This document shows, one piece after another, positions 40,650 through 52,813 of a stretch of 64,000 bases of DNA. Within the stretch, counting starts at the first letter, position 1. The number at the start of each line of letters is the position of its first letter. The notes beneath the pieces were generated by a model, which had not been told where the DNA came from, ran no database searches, and was given only the letters and a program-made list of their open reading frames with translations. The translations under genes were made by a program, and so were the position numbers. The DNA is from Rhea pennata. Taxonomy: Eukaryota; Chordata; Aves; Rheiformes; Rheidae. Location of the stretch: NCBI RefSeq assembly GCF_028389875.1, contig NC_084674.1:10883501-10947500 (forward strand), in the 5' to 3' direction.

Positions 40650-41861
40650 TCAGGAGACACTGTGAGAATGAGACAAGGGCTGAATTCGGATCACAGGGGA
40701 CAGGTTGACCCTAAGAATTTTCTGTGCTCTCCTCCTCACTTCATCATCAGAAGAGTTGTCCACCTTGATTGCCTGGAATTTCAGCAGATTCAAAGTGCTC
40801 TGAGCCCGCTGAGGTTTGTTTTGGACAGGAATGGTATTTGTTTTCTTCTTCTTCTGTGGTGCTTCTCTCACCTCTGTAGCTCTTTTCCTCTTCTGCCCGA
40901 CAGTCTCCTGGTGACTGCTGCTATCCTTCCACTCCATTTTCCCCAGGGGAGCCTCCTTAGCTTTGATTTTCAAAGCCTTGGATTGTGCTGCTACAGTGTT
41001 GCCTTTAGATGAGCTCCCCGTGACTCTCCCATTGAGGACTCCCGAGGCTTTGCAGGCATTACTCTCCTGCAGCACACCACCCTTTGGTCCCTTCAGAAGA
41101 TTTAATGTGAGGGTGGCACAATCTGGTCCTTTCTTCAGACGCTTATAACCCTTAGCTTCTGTTATTTTAGTGCTCTTGCCTGAGGAAGACTGCCTCGGTG
41201 GACTCGAAGCCTTGAGGAGTTTAAGGTCTGAGGGCGAGATTCCAAGATGCCCCTGTTTGTACTTGGATTCCAAACAGGATGCGGTGGTTTTCAGTGGCAC
41301 CAGAGCTTCCAGAACCACAGACAGTCTCATTGCTGGATATACATCAGGATACATATTCGCAGGAAAGCCCACTGCCGAGGCCTTAGATGTGCCAGATCTT
41401 GTCTGCTTCAGGGAGTTTAGCAGCAGATTTGTGGAATTACTTTTAGAGACAGGCTTAGCAGAGACCTTAGAAGAGTTCACGGAAATGCTGGTGGATGAAG
41501 CGGGCACCTTTGCCACAGCTGCTGTGTTTCTAGCTGGAGTTTTAGCAGAATCGGATGCGGTTGCAGCAGCAGCGGTTGCTGCAGTGGAAACATGTTGTGT
41601 GCTCTCTTTTGCTTGATTAGGCGTGTCTGCTGTACATGAACTGTAACCATATACATCTTTACTCCTTAGGATTGTGGGCTGATAGCCTTCCTCCTTGAGG
41701 CCCTGAATAAAGGCCACCAGCTGGGTCTCTGTGTCTGAAAGGTCCTTGGACATTGGGTTGAAGACTCGGAGGGCTTCCTCCAGCACTTTTTGTCCTGCAG
41801 AAGAAATTCTCGACCAGGAATGGACAGCTTTTTCTTCCACATTGTTCACTGCAATATTCAT
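40650..41861 (-). CDS. CCDC71: Coiled-coil domain-containing protein 71
   Basis: Single coding exon, 403 residues. The N-terminus (VEEKAVHSWSRISSAGQKVLEEALRVFNPMSKDLSDTE in pieces) and the C-terminus (LLKFQAIKVDNSSDDEVRRR, then ILRVNLSPVIRIQPL) match human CCDC71 closely. The centre, low-complexity Ala/Ser then Lys-rich, is diverged. Basic, probably nuclear; no function established that I know. Two in-frame ATGs exist, at 41873 and 41861. I chose the second because it has a better context (G at -3) and gives the same spacing to VEEKAVHSW as human. The exon begins at about 41899 after a pyrimidine-rich acceptor (gttgtttttccag). Stop TGA is 40650-40652. Confidence 0.93.
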   Translation of the reverse strand: MNIAVNNVEEKAVHSWSRISSAGQKVLEEALRVFNPMSKDLSDTETQLVAFIQGLKEEGYQPTILRSKDVYGYSSCTADTPNQAKESTQHVSTAATAAAATASDSAKTPARNTAAVAKVPASSTSISVNSSKVSAKPVSKSNSTNLLLNSLKQTRSGTSKASAVGFPANMYPDVYPAMRLSVVLEALVPLKTTASCLESKYKQGHLGISPSDLKLLKASSPPRQSSSGKSTKITEAKGYKRLKKGPDCATLTLNLLKGPKGGVLQESNACKASGVLNGRVTGSSSKGNTVAAQSKALKIKAKEAPLGKMEWKDSSSHQETVGQKRKRATEVREAPQKKKKTNTIPVQNKPQRAQSTLNLLKFQAIKVDNSSDDEVRRRAQKILRVNLSPVIRIQPLSHSHSVS

Positions 41862-41899
41862 GGCATTAGGCAAGGAGGCGCTTCAAAAGGTCCAAATTA

Positions 41900-44464
41900 C
41901 TGGAAAAACAACACTTGACACCTCAAAAGGAGAGAGAAGATAGTTAGCTTACAGCAACTGGAACCATCTCGCATTTTTAAGTAGGGACCTGAAACCATTA
42001 AGACTAGACCTGGCTACTCGTAAACATCAGGTCCGATTCTGTGCATAAGTCAAATTAGCAAGAGCATCATGAAAATTCTGTCACTGTTTTGTTTCTGCAG
42101 TAAAACTAAAGCATCTCTATTGCAGAAATAACTTCAGTCCTAAACAAAAGTTTCAGGCAATCCCATCCAACCCATCCCAAGTTGAACTGTTCCAGCGGTT
42201 AACTCAGTGAAATTTGCAGCTCATTTCCAGTTTGAGTTTGATAAGCCTCAGCTTCTGGTAATCAGATCTCATATCTCATTTTGCCTTTGTAAAGCAGCCC
42301 TCCATTAAATGTTTTCCCTGTGCATGTACTGAGAATAACACGATCAAGCCATCTCAACACTCTTCAATGAACTATACAGCCTGAGTTCCTCAAGTCTATC
42401 CTGGTGTCACGTTCAATTTTCCAGCTTTCTATTTGATTCTGCTCAAAACTGATGCTGAGTCCCTGCCAAATTTGCAGCATCCTCCTGAAGACAGCAGAGC
42501 TGGAGGCTATTTCAGTCGTGCTTCATTGATGCCAGGTACTGCGGAAATACAACTCCATTCCTTGTTTTTTCCCCATGTTTAAACAATGGTCTACAACATG
42601 CTGTCACAGCAAACTGCTGTTGACCCAAGGATACTCACAGCCAAGTGAGTAGGAAGTAGGAAATTCAAGAAGAGCAGCAAGCAGGAAGCAGATAGCATCA
42701 GAGCCGTGCATACAACGGCCTGAGGAATGACACTCAGCTCACCCGTACAGGCACTAGGCAACTATCTGCCTTGGACGGAAGCACTAACTACTGCTTTTAA
42801 AAAAGGAAGTTGAAGAGCAGCCCAGGCAGGAACCTGGGAGAACTCAAACTATCTCACACTGAGCTGGCTGCCCAGCTGACTCCACAGATGAAGCAGTGGC
42901 AAGAGGTTAGTCTTTAGCTTCTCAACTTCATCAGGAGTGTTCAGTGAACAATCTTCTTCAGAGAAATGTTGAAGGTCTCACAGACACTATCAAAGAGGGC
43001 AGGAAGCGAACGAGAAAGTCATGACTGGAAAATTAGCACCTGAGCAGACAAAGTTCTCTCTAGAGCTCCAATTATTCTGCAGCCACAGAGCCCGGGAGAG
43101 TCAGTTGTGAACGAGGTGTCCGTGCCACCACGAATGGTATGGAGAGAAGACACAAACCTACAGCTTAAGCCAAAAGTCGACAAAAGGATCCCAAAGGGGC
43201 AGCACAGGTCAGCAGGTAGGTAACAGGCTCCACATGACTGGTTCATCTCCATCGAGTCTTCTGTAGACGTCGCAGCAGAGGGATTTGGAGAAGGACAACG
43301 CAGTTGCTTTGCAACAGTCAGGACATCTCCCATAGAGGCGGGCAGGAAAGAAAGCACCGCGCTGAAGCTGGCATCATTGGCTAGATATTAGATTTGTCAT
43401 CTCAAAAATGAACAAGAAGTACTAGGCAGAGTGAAGCAAGTGAGGATGCAAAAGCTTAATTCTGATCTGGTAGAGAGGAAGAAGGCACAACTATCAGCAG
43501 GTTTTCAACAGATAGCAAGCAGGTAGCAAAATATTTAATCTGCCAGGAACTTCATGCTGCACGAAGCCCAGGAACAGCCAGAACACCTTAACAGGTATTT
43601 CTATGTCATCTGGGCTGGGACCTGACATTCATGGCAACTCTGTTCCTATAACACATGGTACGAGAGAAAGATGGCTATATACAGCTACGCACTGATTTAT
43701 CTTGTCCAGCCAAAATCAAGTTTGTTCAGTCAACACATTACCTGAGGATCTGCCCTAGCAAAAGCATCAAAAGGCCACAGACCCACAACGCTCCTGATAC
43801 CGATGCAGCATCCCCACAAGCAGAGTGCTGACAGAATGAATCCTTACGCAATGCTCCAGCTCTGCCAGGCCAGGCTTAGCAGTCTGACTACCCAGGATCA
43901 GACTACTAGCCCTTGACAAACAGCTGGGCTGCACAATGCTTCACTGGATGCACTGGAGGGGCGAGCGGGCTGCCAGCGCAGACGACACCGTGGCGCTGGG
44001 CTGCGACAGGCTGCAGAGATGAGCCCGTGGAGGCTGGTGTGGACACCAAGGAGCACTCACTGGAGACCACCCACGGGCAAGCAGCCTCTGGCTCGGTGTC
44101 TCCCAGCGTTCTGCCCCTCTGGGGAGGGGATGCCCCGTCCCCGCTGCCCGCCCCTCACCCTAGGCTCGGCCCAGCACAGGGAGACCTGACCGGCCACCCT
44201 CGGCCCACCGGCTCCCGCGGGCTGGAGGCCCCCAGTGCGCGGGCGCCCCACGCGGGGCCGGTGCGGGGAGGTGTTTGGTGCAGACAGCGGGTGCGGTCCC
44301 CCCGCGCGGCCTCCGCGCCAGCTCCGGGGCCCGTGGGCGGCGGCCAGAGCGGGACTCTCGGCGCCGCGGCTCCGCCTGCGGCACCCGGGGGCCGCCCCGT
44401 CGGGCGGCCCGGCAGCGCCCCCGCCCGGGAGCGCGGGGCCCGGGCACCGCCGGCCCCAACCTAC
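41900..44464 (-). other. CCDC71: CCDC71 intron 1 (5' UTR intron)
   Basis: The acceptor at 41899/41900 and a minus-strand donor (CCG then gtaggt, exon side starting at 44465) bracket a 2.6-kb intron that leads back to the CpG island at 44.2-44.9 kb. No coding exon is seen. It holds an old CR1/L3-like fragment. Confidence 0.55.
42300..42510 (-). mobile_element. Old CR1/L3-type LINE fragment
   Basis: The words tatacagcctgagttcctca, tctatcctggtgtcacgttc and ccagctttc follow, in order, the antisense CR1/L3 pattern (CTGAACAGCCC...TCCTCATAAGTCATG...CCAGCCC). Strongly diverged, boundaries uncertain. Confidence 0.4.
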
Positions 44465-44851
44465 CGGCCGCCGCGAGACCCGCACCCGCCGCTGCGCTGC
44501 AACCTCCGCTCCAACATGGCCGCCCGCGGAGCGCCGGAAGGGCCCGCTGCTTCCGCTTCCGCTTCCGCTCCCGCTTCCGCCCCTCCGCGCCTCCCCCGGG
44601 CCGCGCCCGCACCCCGCGGCGGCGCCTTCGGCCGCACGCCCTCGGCGCCCGGGCCCCGCCCCCTCGCGGGCCCCGCCCCCGTCAGGCCCCGCCCCCGTCA
44701 GGCCCCGCCCCCGTCAGGCCCCGCCTCCTGCCCCCCGCGGAGCCGGCAGGGGGCGCCGCGCGGGGCCGCTCCGGGCGGCGGCGGAAGTGGCGCGCCGGAA
44801 GCGGCGCCGTATCCAGGTAACGGCGGCGCGGCGCGGCCCGGTGCCGGCGCG
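44200..44851. promoter_or_regulatory. Bidirectional CpG-island promoter, CCDC71 / HAD-like gene
   Basis: CpG-dense block between the presumed CCDC71 first exon (minus, from 44465 rightwards) and the plus-strand start at 44852. It contains a run of cttccg hexamers at 44549-44580 (ETS-like), four tandem 16-bp GC-box units (ggccccgcccccgtca, about 44668-44730), further ETS-type GGAAG sites at 44780-44802 and an AACATGGCCGCC element at about 44512 resembling a YY1 site. No TATA box. Confidence 0.6.
44668..44730. repeat. Tandem 16-bp GC-box array
   Basis: ggccccgcccccgtca repeated about four times head to tail. Each unit carries a CCCCGCCCC Sp/KLF-type box. Confidence 0.85.
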
Positions 44852-47800
44852 ATGAGCGGGCGGGCGGCGCGGCGGCGGCGGCGGCGGCGGCTGGTGCTGC
44901 ACGTGGACCTCAACAACACGGTGGTGGCGGCGGACGCGGTGTCGGGGCAGGGCCCGCGCGCCGCGCTGAACAGCTTCCTCAGCACCGTCACGTGGGGCGC
45001 CGCCGGGCCCGCCGGTGAGCCCGCAGCCGCGCGGGCCGCGGAGCCGGCCGCGGAGCCGGGGCCTTCCGCGGGGCCCGGCCGCTCAGGGGCACGGCCAGGC
45101 CGCGGCACGCCCAGCCCGCGGGATGGCGGGCGCTGGGCCCGATGCCTCGCCGGGGGCTCCCCGCGGACACCGGGGCTCCTCCCCGGGGACGCCCGGGGCT
45201 CAGCTCCGCTGGCGGCAGTCAGCGAGCGCGATCTTCTCTCTTTCAGGCGAGTGGCAGTGGGCGAGCGACCGCCCTTCGCTGGGACCCCCCTGCCCAGGCG
45301 CCGTCAGCTACTACTGCCGGTACGGCCGCGATCCTGCCTTCACGGAGCTGGGCCCGGGCCAGCGCTTCAGCAGCCTCCACACGCACTACCTGCAGCTCCT
45401 GGAGTGGCCGGGCAAGCCTCACAAGGTGTTCTCTGTTCAGGGCGAGGAGAACAAGCATTACCACTTCATCCTGCCCTCCTTCTTCCGCCTCCTGGAGGCC
45501 CTGCACAGCGAGGGGAGGTCTTTTGCAGTTGTCTTCAGAACCTTTGGCACGGACCTGCCTCGCGCTCTCCACACTGTGCACTGCGCCCTGGCGGGGCAGC
45601 ACCCCCAGTTCCCTGTCCTGCGGGATGTGGCGGTGAGTGCGGCCTGAGAGCCGAGCTGCCGGACAAGGGCAGAAATCTTCCTGTGGTATTTACAGATGTG
45701 TCCTGCCTTGAACTCTCCGGGCCAGGCTAGTCTCAATCCGCTTAGCCCACCTGCCTTTTTAAAGCATCAGCCTCTGCTAGGAAGTGCATCCAGCTTCTCA
45801 GAAAGAGCCTGTTAGCTGGGGAAGAGCATATATACTTGTGAATTCTGTGCTGTTTCTGCTCACTAATGGCACGTGTTGTGTGGGGAGGGTCTCCTCCTCT
45901 TGAGGTGTCTCAGGTTAGAGCATCTCTTCCCACAGAGAAGAGATGTCTTTTCCTGTTTTGCTGTCTTTGCAGCAGAACAGGACTCTCTGTCAGAGCTGAT
46001 CGCAATTGTGTTCTCCCACACTTGCAGGATCCTGGACAGGAATGCTAGTACCAGGGTTGAGAAGTCACTTTGGTTGTTCCTCAGAGAACTGACAAGCAAC
46101 AGTTTGAAACAGGAGGAGCGAGTAGCTAGGTGCTCATTCGTTTTGATTCGCCAGAGGAGGAAAAGCTTTTATGTCATATGGATTCCTTCTTTTATTTGTC
46201 TTTTCCCCAGCACTGTCCTCCTGCTGTCACAAGGAGTCTCTAGCCCACTGTTTGTTGTCTGTGACAATACACTAAGCAATCTATCTGCTTTGGAAACCTT
46301 TCATCTTCTCTTGCCTCCAATGATACTGCAGCTCTCTGTGGACCTCACTCCTGGCCAAATACGTTGCAGTAAGCGAGAGGTTGTGCTGAGCAGGGGATCA
46401 GAGCGACTTTCCACCCGTGAAGATGGAAGAAAGCTTTACAATTACTTCAGCTCTTTTGAGGGAATTGGAGGCTTCCAAGACCACTTTGACTGGTGAGAAA
46501 TAGGCTGCTGAGGAAGTGAATTGGGTATCTTCTCCTCTCCTCTGATCCTCTGAGATAGCTCCTAGTTTTGAGGTCTTTGCCTTGTCACGGCTTCTATGCA
46601 GCCCCCCTGTGTCTTCTGTCTTCCCCGTAGGGAGACTGACTTAGCTCCTACATCTTTCCTCAGATCTCCGTCCCCTGATGCCCCCCTTGATTTTCTCCAA
46701 ACACCTTCTAATGCATCATCTGGCTGCAAAATGCTTCTCTGGTGGGGGCAACAGCAGACAGAGAGACAAGACTGTCTGTGTCTCCTGTCCCATTTCCCTA
46801 GTTCTAAGGAGTGAACTGAACCTTGAATGCAGACTTGCCCAGCTTTACATGTGAGCTGTTGGGGTGTCCTTCCCTGACTGTTTGCTGTCCTCCTTGCTCT
46901 TTCAGGTGGGCCAGAAATCAGTTCTCTTCACAGGGTGGGAAGCACCTTTGGATTGATCCCCATGATCCCAGTGTTCACCACATTTTTATTGATGACAACA
47001 TCCGCCTGGATGACACGGACACCATTGTTCACCCCCAGGTATGTGGCTGAGCACCCCTGGTACTAGCTGCCCTGGCTGGAGTGTGTCCCTGGTTAGTTCA
47101 GGCATATTTTGTTCGCCCTCTCTTACTGATGCAAAGGGGGATCAAGGCTCAGCTCTGGTGTCCCTACAGCCCAAGAGATTAGAATCACTGAGAACGATGC
47201 TCAGGGCTGTCGGTGGGGAGGATGAAATTGGCTGTCAGCACAAAACAGCAAGTGTTCCTGCCTTGTGCTTGCTGCCAGCTCTGCTGCTCAGCTGGAGTGA
47301 GTCATCCCCACTCCCCGCTGGAACGCCAGCCAGCCAGCCTCTGCGTGCGGCTGAACCTTGTTCACGGCACAGTGTTTAAAGGGCAGTGTTTGTGCTGGAG
47401 CATGCTTGTAGAAGGGGACATTAGTGCAGACAGAAATGAGCTTGGCAGTTGGACAGCTGTTGATGCTTGAACACGAGCAGCAGCTCCGCCTGCGAGTCTG
47501 AACCTTCCGCCTGTTTCCATCTAGGAAGAGATAGCGTGGGGGGAAGGAAGTGTGCAGCGGCCTGTGAATGGTCCACAGCGATTGCTGAGCACCTGGGGAG
47601 TGGCAAGGGAAGGGACACTCTGCATGTTCACTTGCATACAAGCTCTGTCAGTTACTGGATGTGTAGCTGGTGATGGGAGTTGTCACTGCCCAGAGCAAGC
47701 CTGTTAGAAGGAAGTTTTTGGTCTGATCTGGGTGGTTTCAAGTGAGTTAGTGCAAAAGGCTCTGCTAAGAGCCTGAGGCCTCTGCTTGCAGCAGCTGCTG

Positions 47801-48942
47801 CCTTGTCTGTCTGCAGCATCCAAAGAGCTTGGCTTGCTCAGCTCCGCCTGCTGAATTTCAGCCTTGGGCTGTTTCCCTCCCTGATCAAGGAGTTCCTCTC
47901 TTAGCCACCGGTGGGGTCAGTCGGGTGGCTTGGTTTGTCTCAAGGCATCTGTGAAGATAACCTCAGGCCCCTCGGGGCTCTCCTGACACCAGATCAGATA
48001 GGTAGGATCAAATTATCTCAGCAGCAGACTTAGCTGGGATCTGAATGGCAGCTGAGCATCTTGCCAGCAGGGCTCATTTCTGCGGTCAGGGCTTTGGCTG
48101 TCCTGCAGCCAGTACGTGCAGAAGGCTAACACCAGCTTCCTCTCCCGCTGTGTCACCAGCTGCAGGGCTGTGCCTCTGTGTCAGTGACAGCAGCAGAGCA
48201 GGGCAGTGCTGGGAGGGAAACCGATTACCAGGTGGCCTTAGGTAGGACGGGGTAAAGATCAGAAATTAAGCTTGCTGTCCTCTCTGCCGCCGTGCAGCTG
48301 CACCTGCTCTGGTGACAGCCTTATTCAGTAAAGGCAGAGCGGCCGGCAGAGGTTTTCCTGAAGTTGGCCGCTTCAGAGTGTGGTTTTCTTCCAGCTGTGT
48401 GGTGTGGCCCTTTCCTCAGGGAGGCCCTGCCACATGTCGGGAGGGTTCTGAGCCAGAGCGAGACTCCGGCCTTCCTAGAGAGAGGAAATCTGGGGAAACT
48501 TAATCTTCTACTGCTAAAGTGAAAATGGGAGCTCGTGCCCTCTGCCATCGTTTTGCTTTGCAGGAGATTCACTGTTAGTGTGAAAGAGCCTGGCAGAAGT
48601 GGGACGGGCACGCTAGTGCGTGGTGCACAGCAGGAAGTGTGCGTCGCTGCCAGGCTTTGCGAGGGGCACGGCCATAGCACTGCTGTCGGGGGAGGCTGTG
48701 AGTGCTTCTGTGCTGTGTTCTGCTCTCTCCTGCAGGTGTTTTCAGAGCAGGGCAGCAGCAGCCCTCGCTGTGCTCCCACGTCAGAGCTGTATGATATTTG
48801 CCTGGTGCAAACCCATCTCCTGGAGGCCATTGCTGATGAGAACTATTTCCTCCGCTGTGTGCAGAGGTGTGAGGAGAACTATGACCGCTACCTGGCCCGC
48901 GTGGAGAATGGCTCCCCGAGCCAGCTGTGGGATGGACAGTGA
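44852..48942 (+). CDS. Uncharacterised HAD-fold-like protein, 5 exons, 349 residues
   Basis: Exons: 44852-45014, 45247-45632, 46332-46492, 46906-47038, 48736-48942; every site is GT-AG and all phases close at TGA. After an Arg run (residues 7-13) comes LVLHVDLNNTVV, like HAD motif I (hhhhDxDxT) but with Asn21 in place of the second Asp. Residues 147-155 (FAVVFRTFG) fit motif II with Thr153. IFIDDN (263-268) fits motif IV, with Asp266 and Asp267. This suggests a haloacid-dehalogenase fold, possibly with altered or lost phosphatase chemistry. I know of no human gene at this position, and I believe relatives exist in fish; both statements are from memory. The open frame continues upstream to an ATG at 44515, so a longer N-terminus is possible. 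Function unknown. Confidence 0.8.
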
Positions 48943-49599: not shown

Positions 49600-50408
49600 G
49601 CAAAGTGAGGAGGGAGCCGACAGTCCCGGCTTCGGGACCAGCAGCACCTGCCTGACCCTGCTGAGAGGCCTCTGGGCGCTGGCTTGCCCCAGGTCGCCTC
49701 CGCGCTCGCAGTGGGCTCCGCCGTGCGTGCCCCCACGCGGGGGCTGCTCGGGAAGGGGAGCCCACGCGCGGGGGCAGCGAGCGCCCGGGAGGAGCGCGGC
49801 CTTCGGCGCGGGCCGTTCCCTGCGCCGAGCCGCTGCCGCGGAGCCTCTGCCCGCCGCTTGCCGTCAGCCGGGCCGCCGCCGCGGGGCCGCGGGAGGCGGC
49901 GGGGCCGGGCCGAGCCGAGCCGCGCCGCGCCGCGCCGGGGGCGGCCGAGCCCAGCGCAGCGCAGCGCGGGCGCGGCGGGCAAGGTGCGGCGGGGGGGCGG
50001 TGGCGGGCGCGGCGCCGCCCCCGGCGGCAGCGGGCGGGACCGGCGCGGAGCGGCGGCGGCGCGGAGCGGAGCGGCGGCGGCGCCGGCGGCGGGGTGAGCG
50101 CGGCGGGTGCGGTGCCCGCCCCGCTCCCGGGGCTCCGGCGGCGGGACGGCGCGGGCAGGGCGCGGGCGAGCTGCGCCCCGGGAGCCGCGGGGAGCCGCGG
50201 CGGGCGCGGGCTGCGCCCCGGGGAGCCCCGCGGCTGGAGGGGAGCGGTCCGTGCCCGCCAGCCGCCGCCGCTGATGCCGCCGCTCTTCTCCGCAGGAGAA
50301 GGTGTGCGGGAGCCGGGCCGGCCCCGCGCTGAGCCCCGCCACCACGGGCCGGATGGACGGCGCGGCGGGGCCCGGGGCCGCGGACCCCCGGGGCGGCTGA
50401 GCTGGTCC
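49600..50408 (+). promoter_or_regulatory. KLHDC8B: KLHDC8B CpG-island promoter and 5' UTR
   Basis: Dense CpG island. A donor (GGCGGG then gtgagc at 50094) and an acceptor (cttctccgcag, exon from 50296) define a likely non-coding first exon ending at 50093 and a 202-bp intron in the 5' UTR. Confidence 0.65.
50353..50400 (+). other. Upstream ORF in the KLHDC8B 5' UTR
   Basis: ATG at 50353 opens a 15-codon frame (MDGAAGPGAADPRGG) that stops 8 nt before the KLHDC8B ATG, in a different frame. It would be translated first by scanning ribosomes and could dampen KLHDC8B translation. Whether it is used is inference. Confidence 0.55.
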
Positions 50409-52813
50409 ATGGCCGCGGCCGCCGCCGCCTTCGCGTGGGCCTCCTTCCCCGCCATGCCGACGCGGCGCGTCTACTGCAGCGCCGCGCACCGCGACGGGCA
50501 GCTCTTCGTGCTGGGCGGCTGCGGCGGCAGCGGGCGCGCCTTGGGTGCCGCCGAGGTGCTCGACCTCCAGACCCAGCGCTGGACCACGCTCCCGCAGTTG
50601 CCCACGCCGCGGGCTGGCGCTGCCGCCCTCGCCGTGGGCAAGCAGATCCTCGTGGTGGGCGGCGTGGACGCCTCGCAGAGCCCCCTCGCCTCCGTGGAGG
50701 TCTACAACGTGGATGAGGGCAAGTGGGAGAAGAAGGCAGCCCTGGCGCAGCCATCCATGGGCATCTCCGCTGTCCAGCGAGGTGAGGGCCTGGGACACGG
50801 CCTGTGGGGGACGGGGATGCTTGCGGCGGGGTGTGAATCTTGCTGCCACTTGGGACACGGCGCAAGGGCTTTGCCCAGTAGCCCCAGGCCACCCTGTTAA
50901 TGGGGTGGTCACCCTCCAGCCCAGCTGCCCCTGCCCATTCCAGACTCATAGATGCCCCTTCCCGGGGTGGGGATGGCACTGTGCCGTGGGTGACCTCAGG
51001 CCACGTGGCTCCCGCAGGTCCTGGCCTATGAGACCTGCTCCGCCTGGGATCCGACCTGGCAGAACCCCTGCTCCGCTGAGCCCGGGCACCCAGCCGGTCC
51101 AGGGCCAAGGATGCTGCCACTCAAACTTTGCCGAGCAGCCTCTGAGCCTCGGCGCAGCAGCGCCTGGCTGCCAGCTGCACAGCGCGGAGTCGGGCTGGCC
51201 CTGTGCAGCGTCCCCCCGTCTGCTCCGCTGGCCGGGGACGCCACAGCCCCGGGTGGGTGGGCGAGGAGGGGAGAGTGCCCGCGGCCGCGGCAGGAGCCGG
51301 CGCGGGGTGCCAGCCGGCGCGGGGCGAAGTGGAAGCAGCATTTGGCAGCATGGCTGTGTTGCCATGGTGTCTCCAGGGAGATGGCGCTGACTGAGTCTAA
51401 TCAGAGCCGGTGGCCTTGTGCTCCCTGGTGCTTCCTGCCCGCGGGCAGCTGGGGCTGCGACAGGGTGAGGCCGCCCGCCGCCGGGCATCCTGCGCCGGCC
51501 CTGCCTGGCTGCACCCGCGAACGCCCCTGCCCACCTCGCTGCTGCCTGCTTTGCAGACGGCGCCGTCTACGCGCTGGGCGGGATGGGTGCGGACACAGCC
51601 CCGCAGGCGCTGGTCCGCGTGTACGAGCCGGCCAAGGACCGCTGGCAGCCCCTGCCCTCCATGCCCACCCCCTGCTACGGGGCCTCCGCCTTCCTGCAGG
51701 GCAACAAGATCTTCGTCTTGGGTAGGTGCCGCGGGGAGGGCGGCGCGGCCAGCGCAGGGCCCCCAGCCCAGCGTTGCAGCCGGTGGGCCCCATCCTGCCC
51801 GCTGAGCCCTCCCGGCGGGCGCCGGGGGCCACGCGTGCGCCGGCCGCCGCAGCGTCTCCTCTCCGCGCAGGGGGCCGGCAGGGCAAGCTGCCCGTCACCG
51901 CCTTCGAGGCCTTTGACCTGGAGACGCGGAGCTGGACGCGCTACCCCAGCGTGCCCAGCCGCCGCGCCTTCGCCGGCTGCGCCATGGCCGAGGGGGTCGT
52001 CTTCAGCCTGGGGGGCCTGCAGCAGCCGGGGCCCCACAACTTCTACTCCCGGCCCCACTTCGTCAACACCGTGGAGATGTTCGACCCCGCGCAGGGTGAG
52101 TGCTCGTCCGGGCGCTGGGAGATGTGCCCCTGGCGTCGGGACCCAGCGTGCCCATGCCGGCAGCCGCAGGCGAGCCCCGGGGCCGGCGGGGCGATGCTCG
52201 AGCGCTCTCCCCTCCCCAGGCGCCTGGAGCAAGCCGAGCCGTGCCGTCCGCATGAGGGAGAAGAGAGCCGACTTTGTGGCCGGCTGCCTTGGAGGAAGAG
52301 TGGTGGCCGTGGGCGGCCTCGGTAATGCCCGGGGAGCGGGCGCGTGTCCGGCCGCCGGTGCCGACCGGGCAGGCGGGAGCCTCCTCTTCGGAGAGGGGAA
52401 CGAGCTCTGCGAACGGAGGGGAAGATCGATCCGGTTCGGTTCCCGTCCCCGTTTTTGTCACCCAGCGGTTCGGCCGCGGCTGGGTGCTGGGGACCGCGCG
52501 GCACCCAGACTCCCTTCGTCCGTCGCCTCCCCGCCTGCTCCGCGGCGCCGTGCCGTGGGAAGCCGCGCCGTCGGCAGGGGTGCCGGGGCCGCTGAGGCCG
52601 TCCGCTCTCTTTGCAGGCAACCAGTCGTGCCCGCTGGACTCGGCCGAAGGCTTCAGCCTCTCGCGCAAGAAGTGGGAGCCGCTGCCGCCCATGCCCACCG
52701 GCCGCTGCTCCTGCTCCAGCTGCCCGGCGCCCGGCCTCCTCTTCGTCATCGGCGGCGTGGCCCAGGGCCCCAGCGGCGCCGTGGAGGCCCTGCGCCTGCG
52801 CGAGGCGCCCTGA
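50409..52813 (+). CDS. KLHDC8B: Kelch domain-containing protein 8B, complete
   Basis: Exons: 50409-50781, 51557-51721, 51871-52095, 52220-52321, 52617-52813; all GT-AG, phase 1 at every junction, 353 residues (human 354). Seven to eight Kelch repeats with GG doublets (LFVLGGCGG, ILVVGGVD, VYALGGMG, IFVLGGRQG, VFSLGGLQ, VVAVGGLG, LFVIGGVA) form a beta propeller over nearly the whole length. Segments such as SMPTPCYGAS and QQPGPHNFYSRPHFVNTVEMFD are almost identical to human. The human protein acts at the midbody in cytokinesis and has been linked to familial Hodgkin lymphoma. The start ATG has T at -3 and G at +4, a modest context, preceded by an upstream ORF. Confidence 0.95.

Follow-up and report, generated by a model that had tools for sequence, protein, structure and literature searches.

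In HAD enzymes, motif I supplies two Asp residues: one is the nucleophile that accepts the phosphoryl group, and the other, following it at +2, is the general acid-base that activates water in the hydrolysis step (PMC8069645). When a nucleoside replaces water, HAD enzymes are described as having phosphotransferase activity (PMC3946280). The substitution discussed here is also that of the D148N mutant of Tetrahymena lipin/Pah (motif DxNxT), in which Mg2+ stays bound, with the backbone carbonyl of residue 148 as one ligand, and tungstate still binds at the nucleophile (PMC12657724). The D148N construct, from which the membrane helix is also missing, is completely inactive; in Tt Pah2, Asp155, at +9 from the nucleophile, binds Mg2+ (PMC12657724). 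HAD-like domains are also found in the Legionella effectors Ceg4 and Lem4, which are described as phosphatases (PMC7542358).

The bird gene described here lies in a 64,000-nucleotide stretch of DNA (the window). It is well formed, and none of the searched libraries contains a family model for it. The +2 position of its putative motif I is a fixed Asn. The same residue was introduced by crystallographers to stabilise a HAD phosphatase, as lipin D148N, which is inactive and still binds metal and a phosphate analogue (PMC12657724). With this Asn retained over the distance between bird and bacteria, and the remaining motif residues unchanged, the family offers a ready test of the role of the acid at +2, and of how a HAD turns from a hydrolase into something else.

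The gene and its neighbours

Five joined exons (44852-48942, + strand; Table 1) encode 349 amino acids and a stop codon, in frame over 1050 nt, and all four introns have GT-AG borders. The motifs DLNNT, FRTFG and FIDDN start at residues 19, 151 and 264 of the protein. GC content at the three codon positions is 0.65, 0.47 and 0.75. The bird protein has five genomic matches at E ≤ 0.001 in the 1.27-Gb assembly (180 contigs), all of which are its own gene.

The start of the protein was assigned to 44852, with the upstream in-frame ATG at 44516 as a possible alternative. Within the CpG-rich stretch, several ETS-like sites (CCGGAAG / CTTCCGC) and a TTCCGC repeat occur at 44530-44815. The stretch with these sites, on the CCDC71 side, may be a bidirectional promoter.

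The gene is flanked upstream by a CCDC71-family open reading frame on the opposite strand and downstream, on the same strand, by a kelch gene, which is probably KLHDC8B to judge by gene order. The initial annotation had proposed a complete and well-spliced 349-residue gene with these three motifs, placed between CCDC71 and KLHDC8B. The gene structure and the motifs are borne out, and the two neighbours indicate that the position is therefore also right. It had also suggested that the gene may have been lost in mammals; KLHDC8B and CCDC71 are both absent from the main text of a paper on vertebrate gene loss (PMC10416458).

Table 1. Features of the DxN HAD gene and its surroundings in the window, and loci of a second HAD group
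Feature	Position or loci	Strand	Content
Exon 1	44852..45014	+	Start codon, Arg-rich N-terminus, DLNNT motif I (Asp19, Asn21, Thr23), Asp28; HMM match 44876-44992
Exon 2	45247..45632	+	Cap-position stretch, FRTFG motif II (Thr153), acidic residue 157; HMM match 45456-45566
Exon 3	46332..46492	+	Region after motif II, poor conservation, contains Asp233; no separate match by the bacterial HMM
Exon 4	46906..47038	+	Invariant Trp238, GK (Lys249, putative motif III), FIDDN (Asp266-Asp267, putative motif IV); HMM match 46904-47035
Exon 5	48736..48942	+	C-terminal part, conserved Y318-F319, stop codon; weak HMM match 48787-48864
CpG-rich stretch around exon 1, CCDC71 side	44000..45500		GC 0.75-0.83, CpG o/e 0.78-1.08
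Possible N-terminal extension, in frame	44516..44851	+	ATG at 44516, 112 codons, low complexity, stop-free up to 44852
Neighbouring CCDC71-family ORF, upstream	40653..41882	-	PF15374, E 1.3e-163
Neighbouring kelch-repeat open frame, downstream; first part of its gene	49665..50897	+	PF01344, E 6.2e-23
DWEGT HAD loci	L048, L050-L053, L055-L059, L061, L062, L066-L068, L076, L084		Legionellales

Relatives in two bacterial groups

Relatives were sought among genome contigs of bacteria and archaea with a motif-steered alignment, followed by tblastn. The scan gave 96 pattern matches, three of which encode nearly full-length relatives: one in a Chlamydiae MAG (E 2e-15, residues 13-329), one in a Legionellaceae MAG (E 3e-10, residues 2-324) and one in an uncultured member of the Chlamydiae (E 8e-9, residues 12-324). 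A profile made from the bird protein and these three sequences (A5) matches in 27 of 232 genomes of Chlamydiota and in 6 of 143 of Legionellales, where one match is marginal (E 9.3e-4) and one covers the profile only in part. Among 398 evenly drawn genomes of Pseudomonadota, the 30-row profile described below matches one, the Legionellaceae MAG itself. Phyla beyond Chlamydiota and Pseudomonadota were covered by the single motif scan. As far as the sampled groups show, the bacterial members have a patchy distribution and occur in these two groups.

Viral contigs gave no relatives, either in a single-sequence search with the bird protein or in scans with degenerate motifs; the empty scans therefore leave giant-virus members unsupported. 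Searches with the bird protein turned up a single chance match in plasmids and another in phages (E 2 and 9), and plasmids searched with a Legionellaceae member gave none.

The sequences were assembled into an alignment of 30 rows (A6), consisting of the bird protein and 29 bacterial sequences. L025, L032, L034, L035, L043 and L044, which are fragments, weak or decayed, were left out, as was L036, which had no match in the ORF search; L006-L008 and L009-L011 denote the same genes. The relation between bird and bacteria was tested with an HMM of the 29 bacterial rows, the bird row being removed. The bird protein scores 112.9 bits (E 9e-32 for 100,000 sequences) and the best of its 500 scrambles, which faced the same HMM, scores 3.4 bits, in a test that is not fully independent because the bird sequence had been part of both the collection and the alignment of the rows. 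In a six-frame search of the window, the same HMM picks up exons 1, 2, 4 and 5, all on the + strand and in the right order (domain E 8.6e-5, 1.4e-7, 2e-8 and 0.072, the last being weak), and misses exon 3; outside the gene, the next best place has an E value of 0.76.

In the tree, the four Legionellales rows group together (support 100/99) and the bird row is not resolved, with an end branch of 2.64 and a fork support of 44/74. The bacterial neighbourhoods (20 loci) have any one neighbour in common in at most three loci, and therefore give no operon clue. By a crude hydrophobicity measure, the N-terminus is signal-peptide-like or a membrane segment in 15/30 members, of which the bird protein is not one. 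The DxN HAD gene may have passed between eukaryotes and bacteria. The family is carried by a vertebrate and by Chlamydiota and Legionellales, both of which are known for an intracellular life.

Motif residues and the relation to HAD proteins

Seven positions are invariant in all 30 rows of A6, namely D19, N21, G155, W238, K249, D266 and D267. Position 153 is T in 21 rows and S in 9, and position 157 is always acidic (D in 24, E in 6). Position 23, at +4 from the nucleophile, is T in 28/30, with one C and one V, and position 28, which is at an ungapped +9 from D19 in 30/30, is acidic in 28. Motifs I and II are separated by 99-147 residues (median 128), a cap-sized stretch which would have room for a C1 cap. 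The HAD features found are a nucleophile Asp with Thr/Val at +4, a Ser/Thr that follows a hydrophobic strand at motif II, and a Lys upstream of the motif IV acids. Motifs III and IV were assigned to K249 and D266-D267 on the strength of their invariance, their order and their spacing of 14-22 residues (median 17). The assignment does not come from the profile alignment, which in its global form pairs HAD motif IV with the region of D233 and not with D266.

The second motif I Asp of DxD-type HAD phosphatases is absent, its position being Asn in 30/30 rows. In a wider alignment of 36 rows, in which weak rows were kept, Asn21 is present in 31 of the 32 rows with an aligned motif I (L044, weak and misaligned, was set aside, and three more rows have a gap here). 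The sole exception is a Chlamydiota copy, L025, which has Lys at position 21 and has lost the motif IV acids, and is perhaps a decaying gene. The initial annotation had already read this Asn as standing in for the general acid/base Asp of DxD, and had raised its invariance as a point to check; the reading now extends to every row of A6. Deamidation of Asn21, restoring DxD, was considered and rejected as a family rule, because the labile Asn-Gly pair is found in only 9/30 rows.

The family was compared with HAD proteins by profile-profile alignment (hhalign). The template consisted of 32 HAD proteins from Legionellales, 17 of which have DxE at motif I, and it is therefore not a pure phosphatase set. 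The family scores 37.3-38.0 against this template (P 8.4e-5, about 1e-4; hhalign probability 57-60%), and 150 column shuffles of the family have a mean score of 12.8 (sd 2.1, max 21.3). A smaller set of eight HAD_2 sequences gave a score of 30.8, and seven PF12710 proteins gave no signal (17.1, P 0.12). The local alignment spans motif I to just beyond motif II, and sets DLNN on the DxD of the HADs. As a separate observation, 17 of the 32 gathered HADs form a Legionellales group with DWEGT as motif I, having Glu at +2 (Table 1).

Response regulators, which have a Rossmann-like fold, likewise rely on Asp, Thr and Lys in their active site. This identity was rejected, the profile score being 16.4, which lies within the range of its own 150 shuffles (max 20.5).

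In single-sequence searches of Pfam, NCBIfam and PDB, the bird protein has zero matches at E 10. For the HAD part of the 30 members, no Pfam or NCBIfam model matches convincingly among the matches listed, which for Pfam are 25 of 32, with E values given without cut-offs in both; PDB matches of the family profiles are chance-like. The best listed matches, each concerning a single member, are to PF13495 (9.5e-4), NF004402 (0.0015) and PF02100 (0.0037). HAD families recur among the weak matches: PF00702 in 2/30 members (best E 0.13 among the matches listed), and TIGR01488 (0.037), TIGR01990 (0.054) and TIGR02009 (0.12) in one member each. No convincing match came from PHROGs (best E 0.028 among the 25 of 29 matches listed). 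No description of the family was found in the open-access literature searched, judged by titles and the beginnings of abstracts.

The lack of convincing HAD matches in these libraries, together with the missing signal from the PF12710 and DUF2608 sets, would be expected if the family were not HAD at all, belonging to another Rossmann-like family with a chance likeness in its motifs. Against this stand the score of 38.0 compared with a shuffled maximum of 21.3, the placing of motif I on motif I, the score of the response regulators, and the HAD families that recur among the weak library matches, and we regard a chance likeness as most improbable. The motif set is invariant with Asn fixed at +2, and the profile score is above that of the shuffles. 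It is therefore concluded, as far as sequence comparison can tell, that the bird gene belongs to a HAD family that is as yet undescribed and in which DxN is the family-wide motif I. The description of the gene as an orphan and as HAD-like, made at the outset, agrees with these results.

Proposed chemistry and comparison with known systems

Putting these features together, it seems rather probable that the family is an undescribed DxN HAD with a cap-sized stretch, a Mg2+/phospho-ligand site and a long-lived aspartyl-phosphate, leading to transfer, slow hydrolysis or the use of a relocated acid. The Mg2+ ligands would be Asp19, motif IV and the main-chain carbonyl at residue 21, possibly joined by Asp28 (+9), as in lipin. 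A phosphorylated ligand would be held in the site and enclosed by the cap, and Asp19 would accept its phosphoryl group to form the aspartyl-phosphate. Asn21 would be unable to serve as a base for water, so that the aspartyl-phosphate is proposed to be long-lived. The phosphoryl group could then go to an acceptor (a phosphotransferase), be lost slowly (a slow phosphatase), or be hydrolysed by means of a relocated acid, for which the candidates are Asp157 (acidic in 30/30) or Asp28 (28/30). It is from the residues and their invariance that we infer metal and phosphate binding, an aspartyl-phosphate that is slowly hydrolysed or passed on, and with these a changed chemistry of the family. It is possible, if somewhat doubtful, that Asn was selected for, giving a durable aspartyl-phosphate that passes its phosphoryl group to a non-water acceptor or acts in signalling, without a +2 acid/base; to our knowledge, the known soluble HAD phosphotransferases use the +2 acid/base.

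In one Chlamydiota member (L022, 127-1944), the DxN HAD domain is fused to an endonuclease/exonuclease/phosphatase domain in the C-terminal part (PF03372, above cut-off with E 7e-6), which is present in 1/30 members. The best PDB match of this second domain is a mannosyl-6-phosphatase (E 3.3e-9). The fusion to a mannosyl-6-phosphatase-like domain would agree with phosphate-ester chemistry, and is a hint as to the substrate.

The main rival reading is a pseudo-phosphatase, which would bind a phospho-molecule or protein via the intact Mg2+/phosphate site without performing chemistry, and serve as a sensor, scaffold or substrate trap. It would be in keeping with the fixed Asn (zero Asp in 30/30 rows), with the lipin DxNxT mutant, which is inactive yet binds metal and phosphate analogue (PMC12657724), and with the precedent of PcrP, described as a non-catalytic, protein-binding HAD (PMC12632274). 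By analogy, the inactive lipin D148N points to a dead phosphatase no less than to a slow one, in a construct that is also without the membrane helix. However, PcrP is described as having no catalytic residues (PMC12632274), and one would expect further parts of the site to be lost in a protein that only binds. Here, from bird to bacteria, no row departs from the nucleophile Asp, the Lys or the two Asp of motif IV. We consider this reading rather unlikely.

A further alternative is a non-phosphate HAD hydrolase, cleaving for example C-X or C-P bonds. Its +2 position would deviate from Asp as seen here, and as it also does in dehalogenases and phosphonatases. Both of these belong to the HADs (PMC8069645). 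However, the Mg2+/phosphate set (T/S153, K249, D266, D267) is retained in 30/30 rows, and no dehalogenase or phosphonatase model is prominent among the matches listed, PF00702 being confined to the two members noted above. This makes such a hydrolase quite improbable.

HAD_2 and related HAD hydrolases (PF13419, PF12710; beta-phosphoglucomutase-like, with a C1 cap) resemble the DxN family in the profile alignment over motifs I-II, in the cap-sized stretch between these motifs, and in the order Thr/Ser, Lys, Asp-Asp. They differ in having DxD or DxE where the family described here has DxN; this family also has RTFGx[DE] as its motif II and an invariant W238 element, and the bird protein has no match to a family model.

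DUF2608 (PF11019) is a HAD-like family which shares the occurrence in Legionellales, where its genes (L138-L157) are found in 18/58 genomes sampled, compared with 0/14 control genomes. Unlike the family described here, it has DxD, and its profile score to the DxN family (18.2, P 0.14) is not above that of shuffles (max 27.5, n=60), the short profile alignment also falling on motif I. PF12689 (MDP-1-like) was too rare for a profile, with matches in 5/95 genomes, one of them above cut-off.

The PcrP / PA2803 subfamily is similar in being HAD with changed catalytic residues (PMC12632274). Compared by description, PcrP has its catalytic residues missing and a truncated cap (PMC12632274), whereas the DxN family keeps all the motif residues except the +2 Asp.

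For the lipin/Pah (LNS2) phosphatidic acid phosphatases, the LNS2 model does not match the bird protein in Pfam, nor is it among the 25 of 32 Pfam matches listed for the 30 members. PF08235 (LNS2) matches in 0/349 genomes of bacteria and in none of the control genomes. The likeness lies in the acid at +9 from the nucleophile, which is Asp28 here and Asp155 in Tt Pah2 (PMC12657724). The difference lies in motif I, which is DxD (DxDxT) in lipins and DxN in 30/30 rows of the family described here.
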